Translations under genes and position numbers: made by a program
The notes under the pieces: model-generated
Seen by the model: the letters and a program-made list of their open reading frames with translations, nothing else
The model's database searches: none
What the model was told of the DNA's origin: nothing
Origin: Pseudomonas arsenicoxydans
Lineage (GTDB): Bacteria; Pseudomonadota; Gammaproteobacteria; Pseudomonadales; Pseudomonadaceae
Assembly: GCF_900103875.1 (NCBI RefSeq)
Contig: NZ_LT629705.1
Coordinates: forward strand, 4,287,001-4,351,000
Reading direction: 5' to 3'
Length of the DNA: 64,000 bases
Shown: one piece after another, positions 3,417 through 59,623 of the stretch
Layout of the letters: each line of letters starts with the position of its first letter
Numbering within the stretch: the stretch's first letter is position 1

Positions 3417-3732
3417 ACTCTCGCAGGCTACACATCCTTGCGCCGTTGCCTACGCCTGCGCCAGAATCCGCCGGCTTGTGCGCCTTGGGCCTGGGTCTTA
3501 TCGTTTCCGCCGTCGCTGAAGAACAGCGATCGGGTTTGGTAGCCCGGCAATTAGGCGCATAACGCCACCGTTTGTAGACCTCTTCGGGTCTCTGTTTTTA
3601 TGGTGGTCATGCGCAGGGCTCCTTCGGGGGCGCCGGTTCCTAATTGCCGGTCTACCAACCCGCGTATGGCCACCACCCATTCGTTTGGTAGCGAGGGTGA
3701 GGGCTCCTTAATCTCAATTAGGAGTTTCATCC
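3417..3732 (+). ncRNA. Structured 5' leader of DUF6124 gene, copy 1 (candidate cis-regulatory RNA)
   Basis: About 316 nt of untranslated sequence, highly similar to the leader at 59301-59623. From 5' to 3': a conserved stretch (3417-3505); a hairpin with loop AAGAA (about 3509-3532); a long stem pairing 3532-3555 with 3639-3661; inside it a stem with AGACC/GGTCT (3566-3605) and a hairpin at 3617-3634; and a last hairpin at 3704-3724 in which CTCC(T)TAAT pairs with ATTAGGAG and covers the Shine-Dalgarno. The outer stem differs in sequence from copy 2 but keeps pairing. No protein is encoded: short reading frames here are not conserved between copies. Confidence 0.6.
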
Positions 3733-4092
3733 ATGTTCAAACCAACACCCAACCCACCAGCCCCCGACGACGTTTCCCCCTACGAATCCACCGACTCCAA
3801 AAAATTCAACGAAGCCGCCGACCGCGCCCTCGACCATTACCTCAATCCCGCCAAGGCCTCGCCCCCAAGAAAACCCAGCACGATGTTCCTCATCGCGCCC
3901 GATATCGATTCGGAAAGCCTGCTGGCGCACGCCTGCGAGTCCATGGCTTCGGCGAGTGTGATGGCGAGTGATTTTGCCGGGGAGCTACAAGGGCCGCAGC
4001 GCCACAAGATGTTGGCGCTGCAGCAGATCATCATGCTGGGCGAGCTGGCGGTGAACCGGGCGCTGGATAACGTCGATCCGCAGAACGCTTGA
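3733..4092 (+). CDS. DUF6124 family protein, copy 1
   Basis: A 119-aa small soluble protein of unknown function that I recognise as the Pseudomonas DUF6124 family. It starts MFKPTPNPPAPDDVSPYEST. AGGAG lies 8 bases before the ATG and sits in a hairpin. The N-terminal ~35 residues are near-identical, also at DNA level, to the paralogue at 59624-59986. The body is divergent but keeps an alpha-helical pattern around ESMASASVMASDF and IIMLGELAVNRALDN. No signal peptide or membrane segment. It is a single-gene unit closed by a strong terminator. Nothing in the sequence gives a molecular function. Confidence 0.85.
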   Translation: MFKPTPNPPAPDDVSPYESTDSKKFNEAADRALDHYLNPAKASPPRKPSTMFLIAPDIDSESLLAHACESMASASVMASDFAGELQGPQRHKMLALQQIIMLGELAVNRALDNVDPQNA

Positions 4093-4100
4093 CGATCAAT

Positions 4101-4130
4101 AAAAAACGGCCCGAGAGGGCCGTTTTTTTT
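4101..4130 (+). terminator. Rho-independent terminator after DUF6124 copy 1
   Basis: Stem ACGGCCC-GAGA-GGGCCGT followed by eight T and preceded by six A. It can act in both directions and also ends the convergent MFS gene at 4141. Confidence 0.9.
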
Positions 4131-4140
4131 CTCGCTGAAA

Positions 4141-59300: not shown

Positions 59301-59623
59301 ACTCTCTCAGGCTACACATCCTTGCGTCGTTGCCTACGGCTGCGCCAGAATCCGCCGGCTTGTGCGCCTTGGGCCTGGATTTTATCGTTTCCCCGTCGCT
59401 GAAGAACAGCGATGGGGTTTGGTAGCCCGGTTATTTCACAAGGGTGCAACGCACCATAAAATGAGGCGTCTTTTCGTCTCAGCTTTTATGGTGGTCATGC
59501 ACAGGGCGTCTTTGGACGCGCCGGTTTCCTTGTGCCCGGTCTACCAACCTGCGTATGGCCACCACCTTTCGTTTGGTAGCGAGGGTGAGGGCTCCTTTTT
59601 TGGTAGCACGAGGAGTTTCACCT
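59301..59623 (+). ncRNA. Structured 5' leader of DUF6124 gene, copy 2 (candidate cis-regulatory RNA)
   Basis: Homologous to 3417-3732. Features: hairpin CCCCGTCGCTG-AAGAA-CAGCGATGGGG (59391-59416); a long stem pairing GGTTTGGTAGCCCGG ... CACAAGG (59416-59443) with 59528-59549; inside it a stem CACCATAAAA/TTTTATGGTG (59452-59461 with 59484-59493) topped by TGAGGCG/CGTCTCA; a hairpin GGCGTC/GACGCGCC (59505-59522); and a last pairing of CTCCT (59592-59596) with the Shine-Dalgarno AGGAG (59611-59615). Stems differ in sequence from copy 1 but still pair. No conserved open frame lies in it. Confidence 0.6.

Follow-up and report, generated by a model that had tools for sequence, protein, structure and literature searches.

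Two loci in a 64,000-nt stretch of the Pseudomonas arsenicoxydans chromosome (hereafter, the window) carry a related leader upstream of a gene encoding a DUF6124 protein, and the question they raise is what RNA this leader specifies and what it does to the gene behind it. A sequence-only reading had described an untranslated leader of about 320 nt (3417-3732) and proposed that it represented a selected, structured regulatory RNA with no named family. The two loci were indeed related, copy 1 aligning to copy 2 over 337 of 341 queried bases with 82% identity; the complementary words on which the proposal was built (CAATTAGG and CCTAATTG in copy 1, CACAAGG and CCTTGTG in copy 2) were present where they had been placed [Table 1], and the proposed inner hairpins were found in the sequence. 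When the entire window was scanned with the Rfam covariance models, two matches over cut-off were obtained, one at each locus, both to the C4 antisense RNA, RF01695. The two scores [Table 1] exceeded the cut-off of 45 bits as well as the 68.8 bits obtained by phage P1's own C4 with the same model. The structured leader is thus real but belongs to a known family, first found in phage P1, and this match rules out a new RNA family. What is new is the chromosomal expansion of C4 RNAs with a lock-and-key code of its own in each copy examined.

Besides their scores, both copies displayed the covarying three-stem fold of the family, complementarity to two downstream segments (a2 and b2) and an upstream pair of targets (a1 and b1). 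The public P1 record annotates, in order, two promoters, a1, b1, C4 (77 nt), a2, b2 and icd, and describes a2 and b2 as the C4 target sites repressing icd ant translation, and a1 and b1 as putative targets. The window C4 RNAs share with those of P1 and P7 the three-stem RNA and the order of the targets; b2 is separated from the start codon by 10 nt in copy 1, likewise in P1. The GG at 3602 and the ACC ending at 3677 of copy 1 lie 76 nt apart, compatible with an RNase P product of about 77 nt, and C4 of P1/P7 is described as processed by RNase P in PMC5320573. Unlike their P1/P7 counterparts, the C4 RNAs studied here are chromosomal, occur in dozens of copies, each analysed copy having its own code, and mostly precede genes for DUF6124, DUF3077 or unnamed small proteins rather than icd-ant. 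Since the gene following the window C4 encodes a DUF6124 protein, the cassette is not an immI (c4-icd-ant) operon. In local scans, the upstream part of the leader scored below cut-off with both c4-a1b1 (RF03163; 35.5 bits at 3498-3550, cut-off 46.7) and isrK (RF01394; 29.9 bits at 3512-3599, cut-off 50) and is thus not assigned to the isrK family. A hairpin followed by a T-run was seen by eye at positions 4101-4133 of the window, directly 3′ of the DUF6124 gene, although the terminator scan did not list it; with this element right behind its gene, the cassette looks like a single-gene unit.

Table 1. Features of the two C4 cassettes of the window (positions in the window; strand as read).
Feature	Position	Strand	Basis or score
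Copy 1: predicted -10 element TATCGT of the cassette promoter	3499..3504	+	Inferred from TAnnnT conservation
Copy 1: first leader hairpin, likely near the transcript start; a1b1 (IsrK-like) segment begins	3512..3530	+	Sub-cut-off c4-a1b1/isrK matches, aligned copies
Copy 1: a1, upstream target of C4 segment a (TTTGGTAG)	3535..3542	+	Complementarity
Copy 1: b1, upstream target of C4 loop b (CAATTAGG); 5′ stem strand of the sequence-only reading	3548..3555	+	
Copy 1: spacer hairpin then T-run, possible weak terminator between a1b1 and C4	3576..3591	+	
Copy 1: C4 antisense RNA	3596..3680	+	RF01695, 77.5 bits; mature form expected ~3602-3677
Copy 1: C4 loop b (CCTAATTG); 3′ stem strand of the sequence-only reading	3639..3646	+	
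Copy 1: C4 segment a (CTACCAA)	3652..3658	+	
Copy 1: a2, downstream target of a (TTTGGTAG)	3684..3691	+	
Copy 1: b2, target of b (CAATTAGG), overlapping Shine-Dalgarno AGGAG at 3720-3724	3715..3722	+	
Copy 1: controlled gene, DUF6124 protein, 119 aa	3733..4092	+	PF19619, 83.8 bits
Copy 2: predicted -10 element	59383..59388	+	Inferred
Copy 2: a1	59418..59425	+	
Copy 2: b1 (CACAAGG)	59437..59443	+	
Copy 2: C4 antisense RNA	59484..59569	+	RF01695, 82.4 bits
Copy 2: C4 loop b (CCTTGTG)	59528..59534	+	
Copy 2: C4 segment a (CTACCAA)	59541..59547	+	
Copy 2: a2	59572..59579	+	
Copy 2: b2 (CACGAGG, one G-U with loop b) on the Shine-Dalgarno	59607..59613	+	
Copy 2: controlled DUF6124 gene, 120 aa	59624..59986	+	

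A folding energy of -105.2 kcal/mol (z -6.34) was predicted for the leader (3512-3735), a value matched by none of 200 shuffles, and in the best predicted fold of the uncut leader a1/b1 would be paired with C4. Across 36 C4 copies from the P. arsenicoxydans genome, in an alignment fitted to a model that derives from 35 of these same copies, 97.1% of cells pair and 16 of the 27 pairs change on both sides, neither value being reached in any of 500 shuffles. Given a leader that folds far better than shuffles and stems that covary, the view of a selected structure preceding DUF6124 holds. The interpretation of the compensatory changes held only in part. The changes are real, but loop b covaries with two targets, b1 and the ribosome-site segment b2, a pattern characteristic of an antisense code rather than of one hairpin. 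What had been described as an outer stem is the match of the b1 target to C4 loop b; a third element, the recurrence of CAATTAGG in b2, had been overlooked and, together with the two targets of segment a, identifies the pairing as one between an antisense RNA and its targets.

The proposed extent of the leader also had to be revised. Of 36 copies tried, 30 could be aligned, and among these a TAnnnT motif just 5′ of the first hairpin is conserved at 70% or more; a consensus scan for sigma-70 promoters returned no site at the copy 1 leader. From this shared motif, the transcript is predicted to start probably near 3512, which would leave 3417-3500 as upstream DNA and shorten the 320-nt leader by about 95 nt. 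At several C4 loci (e.g., L045, L029 and L025), words resembling TTCCTACA were seen by eye to recur 5′ of the promoter, at L045 twice, about 40 nt apart; they may possibly represent the site of a shared regulator.

Far from being confined to the window, C4 was matched 38 times in the P. arsenicoxydans genome (G000; 6.5 Mb, one contig), 34 times over cut-off. Thirty-five of these loci were analysed, 33 over cut-off and two below (L043, 43.9 bits; L045, 40.6 bits), after dropping L031 (68.7 bits, no gene of its own), L044 (a 65-nt fragment) and L046 (20.7 bits). At L031 (G000:C1:331268-331352), C4 stands without a gene of the usual kind behind it, and at L043 (G000:C1:6173163-6173249) it precedes a frameshifted DUF6124 gene, the start of which was placed by eye; both may be signs of birth-and-death turnover. 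In the genus Pseudomonas, C4 was found in 53 of 59 genomes, G000 included, the richest genomes surveyed carrying 30 to 53 copies each (52 instead of 53 in the richest one with a stricter E-value). Across the class, seven of 185 genomes, G000 again included, harbored C4, the other six with one to three copies, in a survey whose strict filters and few scored candidates per genome may have missed weak copies. Pseudomonadales are listed among C4 carriers in PMC5320573.

The association with DUF6124 was equally close when approached from the gene. Among the best 80 of 294 DUF6124 relatives, 76 have a C4 ending 30-80 nt upstream and four have none at that distance; by coordinate comparison, 24 of the 29 DUF6124 matches in G000 are accompanied by C4, which was not found at the remaining five (L147-L151). 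Inspection by eye of L147, L148 and L150 from G000 and of L116 and L124 from the relatives revealed a DUF6124 gene and promoter or target remnants in the leader, with no C4; the leader of L124 is short between b1 and b2, and that of L116 has a REP-like sequence in place of C4.

The expansion of C4 in a single genome was matched by that of its codes. Segments a and b were read from model-fitted alignments, and the 35 loci of G000 were found to use 35 distinct (a,b) codes made up of 30 different a and 35 different b segments. Both halves of the code fitted the locus's own target in 30 of 35 cases, against four of 1190 combinations with the target of another locus. Taken singly, exact matches of at least 6 nt linked a to its own a2 in 33/35 loci (cross, 81/1190) and to its own a1 in 33/35 (cross, 101/1190), and scores of at least 14 linked b to its own b2 in 32/35 (cross, 116/1190) and to its own b1 in 29/35 (cross, 106/1190). 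The own-target sums exceeded all 20,000 permutations, with the qualification that loci of one genome are paralogs, such that the counts are not independent and the permutations ignore kinship. At all 32 G000 loci scoring at least 14, the b2 helix overlaps the Shine-Dalgarno zone, as it does in 42 of 47 cases in the relatives. An earlier, cruder test on G000 had found the own target to be best by summed score in 27/35 loci, and loop b to be own-best in only 4/35 when compared to a wide upstream window. Controlled proteins as much as 95, 94 and 92% identical stand behind unrelated codes.

Comparable results were obtained outside this genome. In a second genome (G049), 52 C4 matches, less three without an ORF, gave 49 loci with 49 codes, and the joint fit held for the own target in 38/49 against 9/2352 in cross combinations. 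Collapsing the 76 C4-bearing loci of the best 80 relatives, with L135 excluded, left 50 distinct codes from other Pseudomonas, with joint fits of 47/50 (own) and 105/2450 (cross). With only nine distinct a codes among these 50, and 493 of 2450 cross combinations passing for a:a2, privacy in the relatives rests on b. The joint test was failed by 5/35 loci in G000, 3/50 in the relatives and 11/49 in G049, where several of the starts chosen by the script look wrong, lying 114-128 nt away.

The change of code could be followed at a single chromosomal site. In seven relatives, the cassette adjoins the same MFS gene (94.6-95.9% identity), and in two of them the LysR gene (89%) is seen as well. In the eight genomes thus compared, a1, a and a2 are identical (8/8) and b1, b and b2 vary in concert, L064 and L066 being the only two loci with a b code in common. 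The own b was best for its own b1 in six of eight cases and for its own b2 in seven of eight; among the seven with different codes, none of the other arrangements in the 5040 permutations did as well as the actual one, for b:b1 and b:b2 alike. The exceptions were L084, whose b:b2 match spans only 6 nt, and L065, with a weak b1. The compensatory change seen between the two window copies thus recurs between orthologs, in a three-way manner involving b1, b and b2.

We consider it very probable that these loci represent self-silencing C4 cassettes that have expanded on the chromosome, each using its private code to block the translation of its own small gene. Each locus would be a one-gene cassette with the leader anatomy of phage P1 c4-icd-ant, in which a single transcript, starting at about 3512 in copy 1, would run through a1/b1 and C4 to a2/b2 over the ribosome site of the small ORF. 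Cleavage by RNase P at the C4 GG (3602) would free a C4 RNA of about 76 nt, whose loop b would mask the Shine-Dalgarno sequence (b2) while segment a would grip a2, blocking DUF6124 translation on the same and on sister transcripts. In the uncut leader, C4 could pair with a1/b1 instead. As this pairing would leave the ribosome site free, protein might be made in a pulse when transcription surges, until C4 accumulates. With an a/b code of its own in each analysed copy, paralogous cassettes should silence mainly themselves. The comparisons above establish family membership, anatomy, complementarity, private codes and three-way covariation, whereas we infer the transcription, RNase P processing, repression and pulse of this scheme, and any role of the proteins.

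Behind the 35 C4 RNAs of G000 stand 24 DUF6124 genes (one frameshifted), two DUF3077 genes, three genes for BRO-N proteins and six for other small proteins (L012, L017, L037, L040, L041 and L042). Four of these six were scanned against Pfam, none giving a match over cut-off, and L041 and L042 were aligned with them. DUF3077 genes elsewhere in the genus show the same association, 27 of 29 best-per-genome loci outside G000 having a same-strand C4, in some instances several hundred bases off. The two families look related: one protein region (G000:C1:5373836-5374021) exceeded the Pfam cut-offs of both DUF6124 (76.5 bits) and DUF3077 (36.7 bits), and a comparison of the families with hhalign gave an E-value of 8.5e-5, with a probability of only 60. 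A single superfamily for all controlled proteins was considered and rejected, in that the unnamed six show no detectable relation to DUF6124 or DUF3077. No sequence relative was found in the PDB, and none of eight controlled proteins was matched in NCBIfam. The BRO-N proteins were recognized by Pfam (L009 and L035) or in a whole-genome search (L045), and the two that were tested, L009 and L045, both match phage anti-repressor Ant families. The L035 protein (G000:C1:1930665-1931318) starts with MIKVTPNPPE, as DUF6124 proteins do, as if protein bodies had been exchanged behind a shared start.

Of five phage regions fetched, those of Pseudomonas phages PAJU2, YMC11/02/R656 and PAShipCat1 have C4 directly before an anti-repressor Ant gene, and in Phipami28 and U10 C4 lies under other annotated ORFs and not before Ant. 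The PAJU2-type loci share the layout of the window cassettes, a and b matching a2 and b2 (a:a2 of PAJU2 holding one G-U), and are unlike them in that C4 is preceded by a hairpin with a long T-run and that the controlled gene, in these three of the five regions, is Ant. The leader of the L017 cassette matches nine phage records (five inspected); that of copy 1 had no phage match at the DNA level. The DUF3077 protein of L010 matched a PHROG of unknown function at 9.5e-11 and had no tblastn match in phages. DUF6124 itself was rejected as a phage gene, with a relative in one of 50,697 phage records, a C4-accompanied gene that adjoins prtR where a prophage record ends, and as a plasmid gene, with one weak match among 72,556 plasmid records. 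These associations point to a phage origin of C4 cassettes, probably followed by chromosomal spread.

Other functions may be envisaged for these loci. They could be toxin-antitoxin modules resembling type I systems, with a toxic small protein and C4 as its RNA antitoxin, as might be suggested by P1 Icd, a C4-controlled protein that inhibits cell division according to PMC8198154, and by the IsrK locus, which ends in a toxic product according to PMC4825925. We regard this as improbable. None of eight controlled proteins was matched by PADLOC. The intact proteins at the 35 G000 loci measure 87-175 aa, unlike the short, hydrophobic toxins typical of type I systems. Open DUF6124 frames moreover persist without C4, with parts of the leader retained (L147, L148, L150, L116 and L124), which argues against a potent toxin.

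A still less probable reading is that the chromosomal C4 RNAs act in trans to confer immunity against phages relying on C4-controlled antirepressors. The position of C4 before Ant in PAJU2, YMC11/02/R656 and PAShipCat1, and the three G000 C4 loci that precede BRO-N proteins, the two tested matching phage Ant families, would fit such a role, but when 111 chromosomal C4s were compared with four phage C4 loci, none fitted both targets at any of them, some G000 C4s fitting a2 alone, and none of the 42 viral_contigs stretches with the exact target code of copy 1 (three) or copy 2 (39) has C4. Phage immunity is thus without support, though few phages were tested, and the gene that C4 fits is in most loci its own. 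A riboswitch, attenuator or other new cis-regulatory RNA would account for the strong fold, the covariation and the alternative pairings of the same strand, and yet is scarcely credible in the face of an RF01695 match over cut-off, a complete P1 anatomy, and codes that differ between paralogs in a way that a shared ligand pocket does not explain. Self-silencing of each cassette by its own C4 is the reading we retain.

Our judgment is evenly divided on a broader proposal, namely that the chromosomes of Pseudomonas contain an extensive repertoire of self-silencing cassettes orthogonal to one another, the codes of which would diversify fast by concerted change of the loop and its two targets, probably under selection against cross-talk, before domesticated phage-derived small regulators. 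Such a repertoire could be, to our knowledge, one of the largest collections of orthogonal translation switches to occur naturally in a single cell, and the cassettes a source of natural orthogonal RNA parts. The findings suggest that a phage immunity RNA gave rise, within one genome, to dozens of switches that each have their own address, and a single orthologous site allows a change of code to be traced, and they give DUF6124 and DUF3077, both of unknown function, a shared mode of control. In the open-licence literature, we found no paper on DUF6124 and no description of Pseudomonas C4 cassettes with private codes.

A comparative genomics study of 2010 (PMC2864571) had already catalogued C4 RNAs and c4-a1b1. 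Many copies in one bacterial genome have a precedent in Acinetobacter baumannii AB5075, for which PMC5320573 describes 21 Group 1 C4-like sRNAs with a variable a′ loop and apparent processing at GGW motifs. There, targets are only proposed, in terms of phage or bacterial RNAs, whereas here most copies adjoin matching targets and a target gene. Our results thereby offer a testable answer to what many bacterial C4 RNAs target: their own messages.

The upstream half of the cassette invites comparison with the IsrK/orf45-anrP locus of the Salmonella prophage Gifsy-1, where, according to PMC4825925, a short upstream RNA and a read-through mRNA share complementary segments that set access to the ribosome site. 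The best predicted fold of the window leader, with a1/b1 paired to C4, resembles the alternative structures presented there for IsrK, and the isrK model, whose score on the window leader is given above, matches the a1b1 region of P1 with 35.1 bits (P1 record L189:6231-6312), likewise below cut-off. Unlike at the IsrK locus, a terminator-like site before C4 is found in only seven of the 35 copies of the P. arsenicoxydans genome, 1.4 being expected from shuffles. The main text of PMC4825925 contains neither the wording 'C4 antisense' nor 'phage P1'. Entries of a published Xylella table place C4 and isrK side by side, and it may be that the IsrK and C4 literatures describe one architecture.
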